Of a stretch of DNA of 36,464 nt, positions 10,763 through 17,051 are shown in pieces; the stretch's first letter is position 1, and the number at the start of each line of letters is the position of its first letter. The DNA is taken from the NCBI GenBank assembly GCA_020425125.1, contig JAGQRV010000002.1, forward strand, positions 1 to 36,464, read 5' to 3'. The position numbers were made by a program, and so were the translations under genes. Under the pieces are notes generated by a model that was given only the letters and a program-made list of their open reading frames with translations, was not told the origin of the DNA and did not search any database. This DNA comes from Paracoccaceae bacterium (GTDB taxonomy: Bacteria; Pseudomonadota; Alphaproteobacteria; Rhodobacterales; Rhodobacteraceae).

Positions 10763-11470
10763 CTACCAGGCGATCTCGGCCGGAGCGCGGCGGCGGGCGT
10801 TCTCTTCGATCCGCGCGATGCGGCCATCGGCGAAATGGATCACGCGGTGCGCGATCTCCCGGATCGCCGCGTTATGGGTGATGACCACGATGGACGTGCC
10901 GAGTTCCGCGTTGACCGCGTCCAGCGCCTCAAGGACCTGCACACCCGTTGTACTGTCGAGCGCCCCGGTCGGCTCGTCGCAGAGCAATACGTCCGGGCGC
11001 TTGGCGATGGCGCGCGCGATCGCCACCCGCTGCTGTTCACCGCCCGAAAGCTCGGCGGGGAAGTGTTCGATCCGGTGGCCCATCCCGACCCGCTCCAGCG
11101 CCTCACGCGGGTCCATCGGCTGGCGCGCAATCTCCGTGACGAGCGCCACGTTTTCGCGCGCGGTCAAGGACGGAACAAGGTTGTAGAACTGGAAGACGAA
11201 GCCGACATGGTCGCGGCGATAGGCGGTCAGCCCGCGATCGTCGAGCCCGGTGAGTTCGACGTCGCGGAACCAGACCCGGCCGGAGGTGGCAGTGTCGAGT
11301 CCGCCGAGAATGTTGAGAAGTGTCGACTTGCCGCTTCCCGACGCGCCGAGGAGGACACTCATCTCGCCCGAAGGCAGGTCCAGATCGACGCCCCGCAGCG
11401 CCTCCACCGTGACGGCGCCGCTGCCATAGACCTTGGTCAGATCTTGTGTCCGGTAGACGGGGCGGGCCAT
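10763..11470 (-). CDS. ABC transporter ATP-binding protein (LolD/MacB-ATPase type)
   Basis: The nucleotide-binding subunit that drives the adjoining FtsX-type permease. It carries Walker [10 protein letters not shown], a Q-loop in [18 protein letters not shown], the signature [14 protein letters not shown], Walker [13 protein letters not shown] and the H-loop VITHN. This is the arrangement of the LolD/MacB/FtsE group, which couples to mechanotransmission permeases rather than import. The ATG at 11470 (235 aa) gives the usual N-terminus ([18 protein letters not shown]) with GAGG five bases upstream. An ATG at 11488 with AGAAGG is a close alternative. It is the first gene of the leftward three-gene operon. 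No clear promoter could be placed upstream. Confidence 0.9.
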
Positions 11471-11488
11471 CCGATCCTCATCGCACAT

Positions 11489-11915
11489 TGTACCTTCTGC
11501 CCGATCAGGCGCATCGCATGAACGCCAAGTCGGGGCAGCCGCCCACCTCTCGCAATGCCCGGTGATGCGATCTTCCGGCAATCTAGCAATGCGCTCACCT
11601 TCCGTCTGCCCGCAATGCGCAGCGCTCATGCAGCCGCCAAGATGCAGGCGGACACGGCATAGCCTCTACGCGGCGAGCATTGGATTCCGGTGATTGGGAT
11701 CGAACCCGGTTATGACGGGGAGCATTCGCCCTTGGCCGTGCCGCCGCCCTCACAGAACGGGCGACTGGAGATCGACGCTCGGTTTTAGAGGGCCGGTCGG
11801 GGCGGGAGAAAGACGGCGTCCAGCCCGCCCCCGGCTTTCCGCCCCTCCGGCGCCTTCTGCGATGGGCCGGCGGGCACGGCTGCATCCCACCGCGCCCGCC
11901 GCTTCGAAACACGGC
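11489..11915. other. Intergenic stretch of about 430 bases; no convincing gene
   Basis: Lies between the end of the flavin monooxygenase gene and the start of the ABC operon, both leftward. Short open frames exist on both strands, but their composition (Arg/Pro-rich) is that of noncoding high-GC DNA. A segment near 11695-11711 resembles a tRNA T-loop in reverse but cannot fold into an arm. The stretch should contain the ABC operon promoter and the monooxygenase terminator; neither can be placed by eye. Confidence 0.4.
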
Positions 11916-13718
11916 TCAGCTCGTATGGTGTACCTCCTGCAGCCCGTAGACCGGGGTCGGGATGTCCTCCATCCGGGCCTTAAGCTGCAGCGACAGATAC
12001 TGAGAGTAGTGCCGGGATTGGTGCAGATTTCCGCCATGGAACCACAGCCCGTCCTGGCGGGTCGGCTTCCACATGTTGCGCTGCTCGCCTTCCCAGGGAC
12101 CCGGATCCTTCGGCGTGTCCGAGCCGAGGCCCCAGACCTTGCCGACCTTGTCGGCTGCTTCCTGGCTGATAAGGTCTGCGGCCCAGCCATTCATCGACCC
12201 GTAGCCGGTGGCGTAAACAACAAGGTCCGCCGGCAGCTCGGTTCCGTCGTCGAGAACCACGGCGTGCTCGCTGAGGTGGCTGACCCCCTTGCCCGATTGC
12301 AGCTTGATCGAACCATCGATGACCAGATCGCAGGCGCCGACATCGATGTAATAGCCCGAACCGCGACGCAGGTACTTCAGGAAGAGGCCCGACCCGTCCG
12401 CACCCCAGTCGAGCAGGAAGCCGCGCTCCTCGAGCTTGCGGTAGAACTCGGCGTCGCGCTCCTTCATCTTCTCATAGAGCGGGATCTGCCATTCGTGCAT
12501 GATCTTGTAGGGAAGCGACGCGAAGATCAGGTCGGCCTTGCGCGTGGTCACGCCGTTCGCTACCGCCCGCTCGGAATAGAGATCCCCGAGCCCGATATCC
12601 ATCAGCGTGTCCGACTTGACGATATGGGTCGAGGAGCGCTGGACCATTGTCACGTCCGCACCGGCCTCCCAGAGCGCCGCGCAGATGTCGTGGGCCGAGT
12701 TGTTGGACCCGATCACCACAACCTTCTTGCCGGCATAGGCGTCGGGACCCGGGTGCTGGCTGGAATGCTGCTGCTCCCCCGCGAAGAGATCCTGACCGGG
12801 GAATGTCGGCACGCTCGGCTTTCCCGACATGCCCGTCGCGAGGACGAGCTGCTTCGGACGCAGCACAACTTCCGAACCGTCCCGGTCGACGGTCACGACC
12901 CATTCCATCGCGGTCTCGTCGTAGCGGGCCGATTTCGCGGTGGAAGAGCCCCAGTAGTTCAGCTCCATCACCTTCGTGTACATTTCCAGCCAGTCGCCGA
13001 TCTTGTCCTTGGGCGTGAAGACCGGCCAGTTTTCCGGGAACGGAATGTACGGCAGGTGATCGTACCAGACCGGATCGTGGAGGCAGAGGGACTTGTACCG
13101 GCCCCGCCACTGGTCGCCGGGGCGGGGATGCTTGTCGAGGATGATGGTCGGCACGTTCAGCTGCCGCAGCCGGGCGCCGAGCGCGATGCCTCCCTGGCCA
13201 CCGCCGACGATCAGCACATAGGGCTGGGTGGTGTAGCCAAGTTCGGCGGCCTCCGCCTCGCGCGTCTCCTTCCAGGTCTTGCGGTCGCGCCGGTGGCCGT
13301 GCTCGGCCCCCATCGGCCGGCGGATGCCCTTGGGCTCCTCGTGCCCCTTGATCTCGCTCAGCGTCGTGAGCAGCGTCCAGATCAGCCCGTCCTTCAGACG
13401 GATATGACCGTAGCCGCGGCCGGTCGCGGTCTCGAACTCGATCCAGCCTTCGATCACATCGCCGTTCGCGGTCGCGGCTTCTGCCGCGTCCTGCCGGAAT
13501 CCGGCCGGCTTCACATCTGGCAGTTGCGCCTCCAGCATAGCCCGGATTTGCGACGGGCCTTCCATTGTCCGGATATTCCAGGTGACGGCCACGAGGTCGC
13601 GCCAGTAGCTGTCGGCCTGGAACAACGCCGCTGCGGCGTTGGCATCGCCGCTTTCCAGCGCCTCGTTCAGTCGGGAAAGTACGGTATCGAGACGGGCGTC
13701 AGGTGTTTGGTCGAGCAT
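11916..13718 (-). CDS. NTF2/SnoaL-like domain fused to a flavin-dependent monooxygenase
   Basis: A 600-residue two-domain protein. Residues about 10-122 look like an NTF2/SnoaL-type cone (SYWRDLVAVTWNIRTMEG, then GHIRLKDGLIWTL). Residues about 165-600 are a flavin-containing monooxygenase: FAD-binding GGGQGG at 172-177, an FMO fingerprint FAGEQQHSSQH at 312-322 (the last position is His where Tyr/Phe is usual), NADPH-binding GSNNSA at 337-342, and a late ATGY motif (VVYATGYGSMNGW). Such enzymes insert oxygen into carbonyl, N or S substrates using NADPH and O2. An AGGAGG about eight bases before the ATG fixes the start. The gene begins 33 bases after the alcohol dehydrogenase stop, so they form one operon behind the sigma-54 promoter. 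The product is inferred; the substrate is unknown. Confidence 0.85.
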   Translation of the reverse strand: MLDQTPDARLDTVLSRLNEALESGDANAAAALFQADSYWRDLVAVTWNIRTMEGPSQIRAMLEAQLPDVKPAGFRQDAAEAATANGDVIEGWIEFETATGRGYGHIRLKDGLIWTLLTTLSEIKGHEEPKGIRRPMGAEHGHRRDRKTWKETREAEAAELGYTTQPYVLIVGGGQGGIALGARLRQLNVPTIILDKHPRPGDQWRGRYKSLCLHDPVWYDHLPYIPFPENWPVFTPKDKIGDWLEMYTKVMELNYWGSSTAKSARYDETAMEWVVTVDRDGSEVVLRPKQLVLATGMSGKPSVPTFPGQDLFAGEQQHSSQHPGPDAYAGKKVVVIGSNNSAHDICAALWEAGADVTMVQRSSTHIVKSDTLMDIGLGDLYSERAVANGVTTRKADLIFASLPYKIMHEWQIPLYEKMKERDAEFYRKLEERGFLLDWGADGSGLFLKYLRRGSGYYIDVGACDLVIDGSIKLQSGKGVSHLSEHAVVLDDGTELPADLVVYATGYGSMNGWAADLISQEAADKVGKVWGLGSDTPKDPGPWEGEQRNMWKPTRQDGLWFHGGNLHQSRHYSQYLSLQLKARMEDIPTPVYGLQEVHHTS

Positions 13719-13751
13719 GGATTTTCCTCCTCTCGGTCACATTCTTTTCGT

Positions 13752-14882
13752 TCAGGACAGGTCGATCAGGATTTTCAACTGGGTTCCCGCGGGATCGAGC
13801 AGCGCGTCGAATCCCTCGCGCACGGCGTCGTCCAGGCGGATCCGCCGGGTCACCACCTTGGCGGCGGGCAGCATTCCGCTTGCGATCATCCGGATCACCC
13901 GCGGCCAGTAGTGGGTCGGGTAGGCCCAGGAGCCACGGACATCGACATCCTTGAAGGTGACCGCGAACCAGTCGAGCGGGTTGTCATGGGGATGAAGCCC
14001 GACCTGGACCACCCTGCCCTGCTTGCGCACCGCATCGAGGCAAGCCTTCAGGGCGTGTTCGTTTCCGACGCATTCAATCGCGACGTCACAGCCGACATGT
14101 CCCTCGGTCTGCGCCCGGATTGCTTCGCCCACGTTGTCGCGCTTCGGATTCAGCGTGATCACGTCGGGCAGCATCTCCCGCGCAAAGTCGAGCCGCGCAT
14201 CGTTGAGATCGGACACGAAAATCTGCGCCGCACCGGCTGCATTGGCCGCAAGCGCGGTCAGCGCGCCGATCGGCCCGGCCCCGGTGACGAGAACGCTGGA
14301 CCCGGCGGTGACCTCGCCCCGGTCGCAGGCATAGACGGCAACCGCCGACGGCTCGACCAGCGCGGCGTCCTCGTCGCTCAACGCATCTGGGATCGGCGCC
14401 ACGTTGTAGTCGTTCACAAGCGACCATTCCGCCATGCCGCCCGACTGCCAGGACAGCCCCACCAGCGCCAATTGCGGCGACAGATGGAAGAGGCCGCGAT
14501 CGGCAAAATAGTCGCCCGCGCGGGGCATGATCAGGGGCTGGATCGACACCCGGTCACCCGGCGCGACATTTGTCACCCCGTCGCCCACGGCGTGCACGAC
14601 CCCACCGAATTCATGCCCAAGAACCTGTGTGCCATGAGCACCGGTGAACGGATGCGGCTCCTTCGGGATGAAGATCGGCCCATAGGCGTATTCGTGCAGG
14701 TCGGTGCCGCAGATTCCGACAAAGCGGTTCCGCACCAGCACCTGACCGGGTCCCGGCCGTCCGGGCCGCGCGATCTGCTCGACCCGCAGATCCTTGGCGG
14801 CGTGGAACCGCAGAGCCTTCATCGTCCCGCTTGAGCCTGCGGCATCGCGCGATGCGCGCACCAGCTCGTCAGTGTCGGTCAT
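13752..14882 (-). CDS. Zinc-type medium-chain alcohol (2,3-butanediol-like) dehydrogenase lacking structural zinc site
   Basis: A 376-residue NAD(P)-dependent dehydrogenase. Catalytic zinc ligands are visible: Cys58 (GICGTDLHEY), His90-Glu91 (GTQVLGHEFGG) and Glu177 (ALVEPSAVA). The Rossmann glycine motif is GAGPIGALTA (201-210). The stretch where the family normally carries four structural-zinc cysteines (about 117-140, between RVSIQP and VGLSWQSGGMAEW) has none. The ATG at 14882 has AGGAGG five bases upstream and is preferred over 14924; an internal ATG at 14822 (MKALRFHAAK) matches the usual family start but has a weak site. The product is probably a carbonyl compound passed to the monooxygenase encoded 33 bases downstream. 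It is preceded by a consensus sigma-54 promoter and the sigma-54 activator gene. Confidence 0.87.
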   Translation of the reverse strand: MTDTDELVRASRDAAGSSGTMKALRFHAAKDLRVEQIARPGRPGPGQVLVRNRFVGICGTDLHEYAYGPIFIPKEPHPFTGAHGTQVLGHEFGGVVHAVGDGVTNVAPGDRVSIQPLIMPRAGDYFADRGLFHLSPQLALVGLSWQSGGMAEWSLVNDYNVAPIPDALSDEDAALVEPSAVAVYACDRGEVTAGSSVLVTGAGPIGALTALAANAAGAAQIFVSDLNDARLDFAREMLPDVITLNPKRDNVGEAIRAQTEGHVGCDVAIECVGNEHALKACLDAVRKQGRVVQVGLHPHDNPLDWFAVTFKDVDVRGSWAYPTHYWPRVIRMIASGMLPAAKVVTRRIRLDDAVREGFDALLDPAGTQLKILIDLS

Positions 14883-15011
14883 TCCTGCCTCCTCTTGCCC
14901 TGTCGCCGTCTTGCCGGCCGCCATCCGCCGCGTCCAAGGCGCCGTGGCCTGCCGGCTTTCGCTCTGACATCATTGAATTTCCTCCCGGCCCGATTGCCGT
15001 ACGCCACGAAA

Positions 15012-15028
15012 AGCAAGCGGCGTGCCAA
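15012..15028 (-). promoter_or_regulatory. Sigma-54 (-24/-12) promoter of the dehydrogenase-monooxygenase operon
   Basis: Read on the minus strand the site is TTGGCACG-CCGC-TTGCT: TGGCACG at 15027-15021, a four-base spacer, TTGC at 15016-15013. It matches the full sigma-54 consensus, including the invariant GG and GC with correct spacing. Transcription would start near 15001, about 120 bases before the dehydrogenase ATG. The gene on its other side encodes a GAFTGA-type sigma-54 activator, which strongly supports function. Confidence 0.88.
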
Positions 15029-15050
15029 CTTCGCTGGCCCCATGACGGAA

Positions 15051-15062
15051 GGGAAATTTCCC
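15051..15062. promoter_or_regulatory. Palindrome GGGAAATTTCCC upstream of the sigma-54 promoter
   Basis: A perfect 12-base palindrome about 23 bases upstream of the -24 element. Its A/T-rich centre could be a regulator or bending-protein site. No known operator is claimed. Confidence 0.3.
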
Positions 15063-15097
15063 GGACCTGTGGCATCGGTTGCGCAGAAGCGCCGCTG

Positions 15098-15125
15098 GTG
15101 TTGCGCCACAGTCGGGCGCAGACAC
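15098..15125. promoter_or_regulatory. Candidate enhancer (activator-binding) dyad for the sigma-54 activator
   Basis: GTGTTGCGCC and GGCGCAGACAC form an imperfect inverted repeat (TGCGCC/GGCGCA arms, with GTGT/ACAC outside and one extra base). It lies about 70-97 bases upstream of the -24 box, in the range expected for enhancer sites of AAA+ activators. Related TTGCGC half-sites occur at 15079-15092. Assignment to the adjoining regulator is inference. Confidence 0.4.
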
Positions 15126-15197
15126 TCTAGCCTGGACCACGCAGCTCAGGGCGCGCAGACGTCAGTCGGTTCTGGAAAGCTGCCGGAAGGCGAGAGG

Positions 15198-17051
15198 TCA
15201 GTGGCGTGGGGTGAGCCCGAAGCGGCGCATCTGCCGATGTACCGTGGTGCGGTCGACGCCCAGGCGCCGGGCCGTTTCGGAGACGTTGCCCTGGCAAGCG
15301 TCGAGCATGGCCCGCAGTTCCGCAACCTTTGCATCGACCGGGCGCACGGGTCCGACGGTCTCGGGCAGGTCGTCCGGACCGATCATGCCGTCCTCGCAGA
15401 GCGCCGCCCCGACCGAGAGCGCGTTCGACAGTTCCCGCAGATTTCCCGGCCATGGATGACCACGCAGCCGGTCGCGCGCCGCAGGGGACAGGCGCGCCTG
15501 CGCGCCCAGCAACCGGTCCACGATCCAGTCGAAATCCGCGCGCTCGCGCAGGGGCGGCAGGGTCAGCGTCGCGCCGCACAGGCGGTAAAACAGATCCTCG
15601 CGCAGCGCCCCCTCGCGGACCCGTGCGGCAAGGTCGCGGTGCGACGCCGAAAGCACCCGGACGCTCACCCGTTTCGGCCGCGCAGCACCAACGGGCGTCA
15701 CCTCTCCCTCGGCGATCACCCGCAGCAGCCGCGCCTGCAGAAGCAGCGCCATGTCGCCGATTTCGTCCAGGAACAGGGTCCCGCCATCGGCCTCTTCCAC
15801 AAGGCCGCGCCGGCCCCGCGGCGCCGCGCCGGTAAAGGCGCCGGGGGCATGGCCGAACAGCTCGGCCTCGATCAGGCTTTCGGGGATGGCCGCGCAGTTG
15901 ACCGCGACGAACGCGCCGGAGAGCCCGCTTGCCTCGTGGACGGCGCGGGCCAGAAATTCCTTGCCGGTGCCGGTTTCGCCCTGGATCAGGATCGGAAGGG
16001 ATGTCCGGGCGAGCTTCGCCGCCTTCGCCTGAAGCGTCATGACCTGCGCGTCGCCGCGCCCGAGGCTTCTCAGCGCCGCGGGGATCGACGGAGACGCTGG
16101 CACGCGGCGCCGGGGTTTCTGCGGCTCGATCGCATGTGCGAACAGGCGCCGCCCGTCCCGTGCGACCACCAGCCGGTCCCGAGTCGGGCGTTGCCGCGTC
16201 AACGCCTCCAGGTCCGAAAGCTCCATGTCGAAAAAGGACCCGAGCGGTTGACCGACGATGCGGTCCGGCTGGCGCCAATCGATCCCGGCCGCGCGGGCAA
16301 GGATCTGGGCGCCGCCATGAGTCATTCCGAGGATCCGCCCCGAGCCGTCGAGCGAGATCGCCGCTTCGGGATCGACATCGAGAAATTCCGGAGAGCGCGA
16401 AAACCGCAGCACCCATTCGTTGCGCGTCTGCGCCATCAGGTTCGCCAGTTCGATCCGCCGCACCGACGCCCGCACGAGGTGAAGAGCCAGGTTCTGGCTC
16501 GCCTTCTCGATCGGCGACGACAGAAGCGAGATGTCGAGCACCGCCGCCAGATCGCCTCGCGTGTCGTAGATCGGCGCCGCGGTGCAGGAGAGCGGCGTGT
16601 GCGTGACGTCGAAATGATCCGTCTGGTGAATGGTCAGCGCCTCGCCGGTCGCGACGCAGGCGCCGATCGCGCAGGTGCCTGCCCGCGGTTCGGACCATTC
16701 GGCGCCAAGGTAGAGACCGGCCTTGCGCAAGGGGCGGGCAAAGTCGGGATCGCCGAGGAATTCCACCGCGACGCCCGAGCGATCCCCCAGAAGCAGCACG
16801 TAGTTCTGTGCCGCGATCTGGGTATAGAGCGCTTCGAGCCCCGAACGGGCGATGGCGATCAGGTCTTCGGATTGCTGGCGGTGCGTCCGAAGATCGCGCT
16901 CCGGCAGGATATACGCCTCGCAGGCGCGGCTCGGGTCAAGTCGGTAGTCGTTGAGGCAACGAAGCCAGGAGTCGACGACCCAAGGGTCGCGCGAAGAGGC
17001 GCGGCCCATCGCCACGTTCTCGACCTCCCGGATGTGATCGAGTCCGCCCAA
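15198..17051 (-). CDS. Sigma-54-dependent transcriptional activator, AcoR-like
   Basis: A 617-residue enhancer-binding protein. The N-terminal region (HIREVENVA, SWLRCLNDYRLDP, EDLIAIARSGLEALY) is typical of AcoR-type regulators. It is followed by a GAF sensor domain (about 75-200), a PAS-like region (about 210-310), an AAA+ domain with Walker A GETGTGKE (358-365), the sigma-54-contacting GAFTGA loop (404-409) and Walker B GGTLFLDE (423-430), and a Fis-type helix-turn-helix at the end (NVSETARRLGVDRTTVHRQM). There is no receiver domain, so it probably senses a small molecule directly through GAF/PAS. The TTG start at 17051 retains the conserved HIREVE segment but has poor ribosome-site spacing; ATG at 17009 is the alternative. 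Its gene lies directly upstream of the sigma-54 promoter it probably activates. Confidence 0.9.
   Translation of the reverse strand: MGGLDHIREVENVAMGRASSRDPWVVDSWLRCLNDYRLDPSRACEAYILPERDLRTHRQQSEDLIAIARSGLEALYTQIAAQNYVLLLGDRSGVAVEFLGDPDFARPLRKAGLYLGAEWSEPRAGTCAIGACVATGEALTIHQTDHFDVTHTPLSCTAAPIYDTRGDLAAVLDISLLSSPIEKASQNLALHLVRASVRRIELANLMAQTRNEWVLRFSRSPEFLDVDPEAAISLDGSGRILGMTHGGAQILARAAGIDWRQPDRIVGQPLGSFFDMELSDLEALTRQRPTRDRLVVARDGRRLFAHAIEPQKPRRRVPASPSIPAALRSLGRGDAQVMTLQAKAAKLARTSLPILIQGETGTGKEFLARAVHEASGLSGAFVAVNCAAIPESLIEAELFGHAPGAFTGAAPRGRRGLVEEADGGTLFLDEIGDMALLLQARLLRVIAEGEVTPVGAARPKRVSVRVLSASHRDLAARVREGALREDLFYRLCGATLTLPPLRERADFDWIVDRLLGAQARLSPAARDRLRGHPWPGNLRELSNALSVGAALCEDGMIGPDDLPETVGPVRPVDAKVAELRAMLDACQGNVSETARRLGVDRTTVHRQMRRFGLTPRH

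Follow-up and report, generated by a model that had tools for sequence, protein, structure and literature searches.

Background

Among described enzymes, the reference for the one treated here is JsFMO of Janthinobacterium svalbardensis (PDB 8ACS), a dimeric type II flavin monooxygenase (FMO) with a SnoaL-like domain. It accepts NADH but works better with NADPH, and converts small and bicyclic ketones to esters or lactones by Baeyer-Villiger oxidation; the products given for two linear ketones were acetate esters only, and sulfoxides are also formed, sulfide conversions being poor (PMC10028610). That paper is a biocatalyst study whose main text contains none of the terms 'operon', 'gene cluster', 'natural substrate' and 'physiological'. 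Here we describe a gene unit encoding a relative of JsFMO in a 36,464-nucleotide stretch of a Paracoccaceae genome (contig JAGQRV010000002.1, hereafter the window). It occupies positions 11916-17051 of the (-) strand and consists, in transcription order, of an AcoR-type activator, a zinc alcohol dehydrogenase (ADH) and the FMO. The likeness to JsFMO lies in the alignment, the conserved active site and the SnoaL-like N-terminal domain; the difference is that JsFMO has been studied as a biocatalyst.

Two described pathways invite comparison. The unit resembles the canonical AcoR-acoXABC system in its type of regulator, a similar sensor, an operator common to one relative (Rhodoblastus, locus L062) and the type of sigma-54 promoter, and a butanediol dehydrogenase would supply such a pathway. 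It differs in that acoA, acoB and acoC are absent, the complex dependent on thiamine pyrophosphate and lipoate being replaced by an oxygenase. In the bacterial acetone/2-propanol pathway, a Baeyer-Villiger monooxygenase bearing the type I motif FxGxxxHxxxW acts together with an esterase encoded next to it. The succession of a dehydrogenase and a Baeyer-Villiger step is common to both, yet the window FMO lacks FxGxxxHxxxW, and no esterase was found among the window neighbours scanned or as a recurrent operon mate of its relatives.

A third relative is the pair SMb20102 (acoR)-SMb20103 of S. meliloti, whose regulator and FMO are 67% and 81% identical to those of the window and in which a sigma-54 site and a palindrome precede the FMO gene; unlike the window, it showed no ADH within the stretch examined. 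From adjacency, function and plasmid, SMb20102/SMb20103 is taken to be the regulator/FMO pair of our locus L083. Both proteins were lower in a phbC phaR than in a phbC mutant in TY medium (log2 -1.68 and -1.27, respectively; PMC12542648), and SMb20102 is listed among the activators without identified targets (PMC3616915).

We consider it moderately probable that the window's unit is a two-enzyme operon for the aerobic use of 2,3-butanediol and acetoin, switched on by its AcoR-type activator through sigma-54, in which the FMO cleaves acetoin.

Results

Kinship with acetoin regulators and acetoin genes

The window regulator displayed the architecture of AcoR, namely a GAF domain, a sigma-54 AAA+ domain with a GAFTGA loop and a Fis-type helix-turn-helix. 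Its GAF region was identical at 87 of 143 positions (61%) to that of the L062 regulator, which stands beside acoXABC, and at 42 of 139 to that of a paralogue in its own genome. In L062 this regulator lies between acoC-acoB-acoA-acoX and the FMO gene, the whole acoC-acoB-acoA-acoX-regulator array being divergent from the latter, and AcoC, at 471.7 bits, passed the cut-off of 307. Kinship with AcoR is visible both in this GAF identity and in a palindrome, GCMACANNTGTKGC, which precedes acoX in L062; the window's own operator has diverged from it.

Thirty-five copies of the palindrome were present in the 1,688,740 bp of 80 FMO loci (sample defined below), 30 of them within 390 bp upstream of the FMO operon; the other five stood before the short-chain dehydrogenase/reductase (SDR) gene heading the operon (L001, L020 and L025), before the L010 ADH and before the L062 acoX. 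S. meliloti pSymB (1.68 Mb) contained a single copy, 158 bp before the FMO gene.

Gene context pointed in the same direction. In nine annotated plasmid regions, picked by hand, a sigma-54 regulator adjoined the FMO in five and a 2,3-butanediol dehydrogenase (BDH) in three, one of which also had an acetoin reductase. The latter was a Dinoroseobacter row with sigma-54 regulator, FMO, acetoin reductase (349 bits, cut-off 304) and BDH. Agrobacterium RAC06 displayed regulator, annotated BDH and FMO, which is the order of the window, and Paracoccus seriniphilus regulator, FMO and BDH. On Paraburkholderia pSYMBR3459, acoXABC was found about 6 kb upstream of the FMO, with no such regulator adjoining, and an ExaC-like aldehyde dehydrogenase (871 bits, cut-off 900) behind it. 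ExaC, an acetaldehyde dehydrogenase, occurred within 4.5 kb of the FMO in 3/80 loci (L023, L027 and L035), that of L023 passing the cut-off (951 versus 900). The window's genome encodes ExaC elsewhere (927 bits), its promoter showing neither an operator half-site nor a -24/-12 element. Acetoin and 2,3-butanediol elicit a response from the P. aeruginosa acoR promoter (PMC9249247). Control of the window operon by acetoin is well supported by the sequence comparisons above. A 2,3-butanediol urinary marker in Fmo5-/- mice (PMC9393927) was retained as an analogy only, the enzyme being distant.

Conservation of the three-gene unit

Two samples of FMO neighbourhoods were compared: the best 80 of at least 586 confirmed FMO relatives from a genome scan, and 57 FMO places besides the window in its own order. 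They overlap (three identical FMO pairs) and their counts are not independent; locus counts are also approximate, as some genes were split or overlooked by the gene caller (for instance the L010 ADH and the L069 regulator), with tblastn as a check. 'Near' denotes a distance within 4.5 kb of the FMO and 'far' anything beyond, up to 7-10 kb.

The preliminary description of the window, made from its letters alone, had proposed a self-contained leftward unit and had staked it on co-occurrence of the three families. All three open reading frames were present as described, on the (-) strand and with the corresponding Pfam domains; the unit is self-contained, has no linked esterase and is kept in other genomes. 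Among the 80 loci, the regulator was near the FMO in 58, the ADH in 44 and both in 43, and these 43 three-gene loci covered 24 named genera and three orders. The corresponding values for the 57 places were 24, 12 and 12. In the window's order, the FMO (E <= 1e-150) was recorded in 55/244 genomes and 31/101 genera. Over 137 loci (L179, the window and L084 left out), near and far occurrences at the thresholds used were 82 and 0 for the regulator, 56 and 0 for the ADH, 5 and 0 for SDRs, and 3 and 1 for ExaC.

Other genes were less regular. Two further large clusters, c3 and c4, recurred in 42 and 18 of the 80 loci, respectively, without a fixed place, and ten Mesorhizobium loci displayed genus-level synteny. 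The 44 other genes collinear with the FMO included no family of esterases or alpha/beta hydrolases with two members (36 further families are unlisted); two amidohydrolases were seen, apparently both in L073. FMO neighbours in actinobacteria (Tsukamurella and Rhodococcus plasmids) were uninformative.

Promoter and loss of the sigma-54 loop

The exact -24/-12 site that had been noticed between regulator and dehydrogenase was found at 15027-15013. This site, TGGCACGCCGCTTGC, is the sole exact match to TGGCACR-N4-TTGC in the 36-kb window; with one mismatch allowed there were 3 sites versus 1.38 expected, a number reached in 13 of 100 shuffles, so that its statistics alone are modest evidence. Most relatives whose regulator retains the sigma-54 loop had the site at the same place.

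In a first scoring, a strong -24/-12 element was observed upstream of the operon in 39/54 loci with a full-length regulator and in 4/27 with a short one or none. A classification of 139 loci then separated 43 regulators with the GAFTGA loop or a variant, 38 without it, 6 short ones and 52 loci without a called regulator. With a loop-bearing regulator, the element was directly upstream of the operon in 38/43, and four more loci (L001, L010, L020 and L025) carried it at the real operon start; the remaining one, L058, has a regulator that is just a 34% relative. The GAFTGA-like loop was absent from 38/81 regulators longer than 500 residues (L027, L039, L043, L049, L059, L061, L063, L068, L070, L076, L077, L079, L080, L084 and 24 of L122-L166), and with it the -24/-12 element had been lost, apart from a single loose match. 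Thirty of these 38 loci retained two or more operator half-sites. Short regulators were accompanied by the element in 1/6 cases (L033), and loci without a called regulator in 3/52 (L034, L050 and L069, the L069 regulator being found by tblastn).

On the regulator tree (81 rows, the six short regulators, L033 included, being left out), two changes of loop state gave two loop-less clades, mainly from Rhodobacterales, one also holding Stappia; for some loop-less rows, membership of Rhodobacterales was deduced from the window's order. The window and Amaricoccus kept the loop, and their FMOs grouped together (local support 99) inside a broader assemblage that also contained Hyphomicrobiales and Burkholderiales, which makes transfer between orders likely.

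The flavin monooxygenase and the dehydrogenase

The window FMO aligned to JsFMO (8acs_A) over residues 7-600 (phmmer E 2e-302) and had the architecture of type IIb FMOs (JsFMO, FMO-E/F/G), an NTF2/SnoaL-like N-terminal domain of about 160 residues followed by the FMO domain. Counterparts of JsFMO His216, Asp217, Tyr458, Arg363, Arg571 and Asp43 (D41 in the window) were each conserved in 81/81 proteins examined, and that of Thr120 in 80/81, Ser replacing it in the remaining one. The motif FxGxxxHxxxH, which is characteristic of type IIb FMOs (PMC7570161), read FAGEQQHSSQH in the window and was present in 81/81 proteins. By sequence, the window FMO is related to JsFMO over its full length and belongs to the type IIb FMOs, an already known kind of enzyme. 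A second SnoaL-FMO of the same genome (G000:C34:142615-144321; L082, L179) is 41% identical and has neither this regulator nor the ADH alongside.

The best PDB match of the ADH was (R,R)-butanediol dehydrogenase (6ie0, E 3.6e-63), and 2,3-butanediol is its putative substrate by similarity only. Such dehydrogenases usually have a four-cysteine cluster as structural-zinc site. The window ADH displayed the CGTD and GHE motifs and cysteines at 72, 200, 279, 285 and 295; the four-cysteine cluster was absent. Two main ADH types occurred at FMO loci, with ADHA upstream, or ADHA or ADHB downstream, of the FMO. Parsimony counted 17 changes of ADH presence on the FMO tree (FastTree, 138 rows, L054 and L131 left out), which indicates repeated loss or recruitment. 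In L001 and L025, an apparently membrane-bound protein of 353 residues is encoded just before the ADH (L001:7780-8841 and L025:7698-8759); that of L001 had no Pfam or NCBIfam match, and the protein is perhaps a substrate transporter.

Features of the window

Coordinates are collected in Table 1. The intergenic gap between ADH and FMO is 33 bp. The true start of the ADH may be 14882, behind an AGGAGG, instead of 14924, and the TTG start codon assigned to the regulator is doubtful. Between promoter and ADH, a frame of 34 codons (14869-14973, (-) strand), for which GGAGG would serve as start signal, overlaps the ADH start and is possibly a leader peptide. Just upstream of the regulator, an arylsulfotransferase-like gene (PF14269; 17276-18649, (-) strand) clustered with no gene of the 80 relatives' loci. 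On the other flank, the ABC-transporter ATPase gene (10763-11629) belonged only to the broad 42-locus cluster without fixed position.

Table 1. Positions in the window of the genes, domains and sites of the unit.
Feature	Position	Strand	Size, evidence or remark
FMO, SnoaL/NTF2-type IIb flavin monooxygenase	11916-13718	(-)	600 aa; Pfam SnoaL_2 + FMO-like/Pyr_redox
SnoaL_2 (NTF2-like) N-terminal domain of FMO, residues 16-114	13377-13673	(-)	Pfam PF12680, E 2.7e-6
FMO active-site codons His214-Asp215 (= JsFMO His216-Asp217)	13074-13079	(-)	Alignment; residue roles from PMC10028610
Zinc medium-chain dehydrogenase/reductase (MDR; ADH), 2,3-butanediol-dehydrogenase-like	13752-14924	(-)	390 aa; ADH_N PF08240 + ADH_zinc_N PF00107
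Sigma-54 -24/-12 promoter TGGCACGCCGCTTGC	15013-15027	(-)	Exact consensus match; kept in relatives
Third putative operator half-site GCCACA	15068-15073	(-)	Sequence inspection
Putative AcoR operator, inverted half-sites TGTGGC-GCAACA	15099-15110	(-)	Diverged from the relatives' GCMACANNTGTKGC palindrome
AcoR-type activator	15198-17051	(-)	617 aa; Pfam GAF + Sigma54_activat + HTH_8 (Fis)
GAFTGA sigma-54 contact loop of the regulator	15825-15842	(-)	Sequence motif

Discussion

Proposed pathway

For the window's module we infer inducer, substrate, product and cofactor cycle as follows. The AcoR-type activator would sense acetoin and switch the operon on through sigma-54. The ADH would oxidise butanediol with NAD+ to acetoin and NADH, and the FMO would convert acetoin, O2 and NAD(P)H to 1-hydroxyethyl acetate and H2O, inserting oxygen into the bond that joins the carbonyl carbon of acetoin to its carbinol carbon, in a Baeyer-Villiger reaction. 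This hemiacetal ester would break down spontaneously to acetaldehyde and acetate, and acetaldehyde would be oxidised by the ExaC encoded elsewhere in the genome. Butanediol and O2 would in sum yield acetaldehyde, acetate and H2O, a redox-neutral conversion if ADH and FMO share NADH, and the thiamine/lipoate acetoin dehydrogenase complex would not be needed. Self-breakdown of the hemiacetal ester would also account for the lack of a recurrent esterase or alpha/beta-hydrolase among operon mates. The missing esterase had been read as a sign that the chemistry may differ from known pathways; the absence of a linked gene holds, and is what would be expected if an acyloin is cleaved.

A wider proposal, which we regard as evenly balanced between true and false, is that the type IIb FMOs of this clade are acyloin (acetoin) monooxygenases of an oxygen-dependent butanediol/acetoin pathway, redox-neutral through the NADH shared by its two enzymes and bypassing the acetoin dehydrogenase complex. 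The genes would have spread through Alpha- and Betaproteobacteria as one transferable AcoR-BDH-FMO unit, and in Rhodobacterales the regulator would have abandoned sigma-54 on two occasions.

Several observations weigh against the butanediol/acetoin pathway. Neither regulator nor ADH was found at 33/57 places of the order, 12 more lacked the ADH, the regulator-FMO pair of S. meliloti has no ADH, and neither regulator nor BDH adjoins the FMO in 4/9 annotated plasmid regions. The L001 SDR26 fell under the acetoin-reductase cut-off (258.8 versus 304), and the L064 SDR is on the opposite strand. Sorbitol dehydrogenase was almost as close as BDH among the PDB matches of the ADH, and no NCBIfam model passed its cut-off on the ADH, threonine dehydrogenase being the best; NCBIfam naming of ADH and regulator was dropped, all models shown being under cut-off. 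No exact GCMACANNTGTKGC occurs in the window, whose own putative operator has diverged, with three half-sites, and matches with at most one mismatch in the whole genome numbered 15 versus 41 in a reversed control; the sole exact match lies inside a called open reading frame and was taken as chance. Agrobacterium RAC06 has an alpha/beta hydrolase gene 2 kb downstream on the opposite strand, and Microvirga has one 2.5 kb upstream, past a transposase. In Achromobacter (L029, L033, L054 and L057) the FMO is followed by GntR, an aconitase-family (AcnD-like) gene and PrpF, that is, methylcitrate genes; these were set aside as part of the module, being restricted to one genus and starting with their own GntR gene. 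Our literature searches turned up no assay of a type IIb FMO on acetoin.

To the same side belongs the distribution of the acetoin dehydrogenase complex. acoAB was within 4.5 kb of the FMO in 1/80 and 0/57 cases only. FMO and an AcoC-type E2 occurred together in 6/244 genomes (55 and 17 respectively; 3.8 expected, p 0.23) and in 3/337 (16 and 31; 1.5 expected, p 0.17); in neither set were the two adjacent. Co-distribution was discarded as support since no significant association was seen. The window's genome itself encodes an AcoC-type E2 45 kb from the module, in an operon on the same contig. The module therefore need not be the only acetoin route and may be a second one or serve another substrate. 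This E2 (450 aa, 337.8 bits, cut-off 307) is encoded with E1 alpha and beta at G000:C33:58424-61825 (L189:14425-17826). The operon was rejected as a partner of the module, to which it is not joined; its neighbours look, by sequence, like genes for sugar ABC transport and SorC-like regulators.

Alternative substrates

Within the same regulon, the FMO might act on diacetyl (via acetic anhydride to two acetates) or another C4 relative, serving detoxification of diketones and not carbon feeding. AcoR-type control and an ADH resembling butanediol/diacetyl reductases would fit, an esterase would again be unnecessary, and ADH-less forms such as that of S. meliloti would be simple detoxifiers. ExaC near the FMO in the three loci mentioned above suggests, however, that an aldehyde is formed, which would not be the case with diacetyl, and we judge this substrate unlikely. 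A pathway of the 2-propanol/acetone or methyl-ketone type, from a secondary alcohol through a ketone to an acetate ester with the esterase encoded elsewhere, appears quite unlikely. This class of ADH accepts secondary alcohols. JsFMO produces acetate esters from linear ketones of medium size (PMC10028610). However, esterases and alpha/beta hydrolases did not recur in the listed families of the 44 operon mates, and the AcoR-type sensor, the acoX operator and the acetoin-reductase and BDH neighbours point elsewhere. The preliminary description had suggested a pathway of just this kind or one based on diketones; its pairing of dehydrogenase and oxygenase is retained, while regulator, operator and synteny favour acetoin/2,3-butanediol over 2-propanol/acetone for both inducer and substrate.

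Mycobacteria have an acetol monooxygenase, which cleaves acetol. The same chemistry on 1,2-propanediol and hydroxyacetone, with acetol giving acetate and formaldehyde, would suit a vicinal diol dehydrogenase, but the acoXABC and acetoin-reductase links are C4-specific and make it very unlikely. It would be equally surprising if the FMO were a sulfur or nitrogen oxygenase, or a general stress enzyme, merely inside the AcoR regulon. The 33 of 57 order places without regulator and the 45 without ADH would agree with that, as would sulfoxide formation by JsFMO, whose sulfide conversions are nevertheless poor (PMC10028610); moreover, regulator and ADH matches were confined to the vicinity of the FMO, with a conserved joint promoter.

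Conclusions

Two suggestions of the preliminary description stand in part. Dependence of the operon on RpoN has sequence support in the window, whereas all 24 FMO-adjacent regulators of the order sample lack the sigma-54 loop. As to an undescribed pathway, our literature searches found no paper on the natural substrate of type IIb FMOs, but the module is not unique to this genome and the FMO family has been characterised in vitro (JsFMO).

If butanediol and acetoin are indeed the substrates, type II FMOs with an NTF2 domain, which have mainly been studied as biocatalysts (PMC10028610), would gain a natural role, and acetoin as substrate would account for the small-ketone preference and NADH use of type IIb FMOs. 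SMb20102 would gain its first predicted target (PMC3616915). Acetoin/2,3-butanediol metabolism would acquire an oxygen-dependent branch. That the GAFTGA loop and the -24/-12 element were lost together offers a natural experiment on the polymerase switch by a sigma-54 activator.

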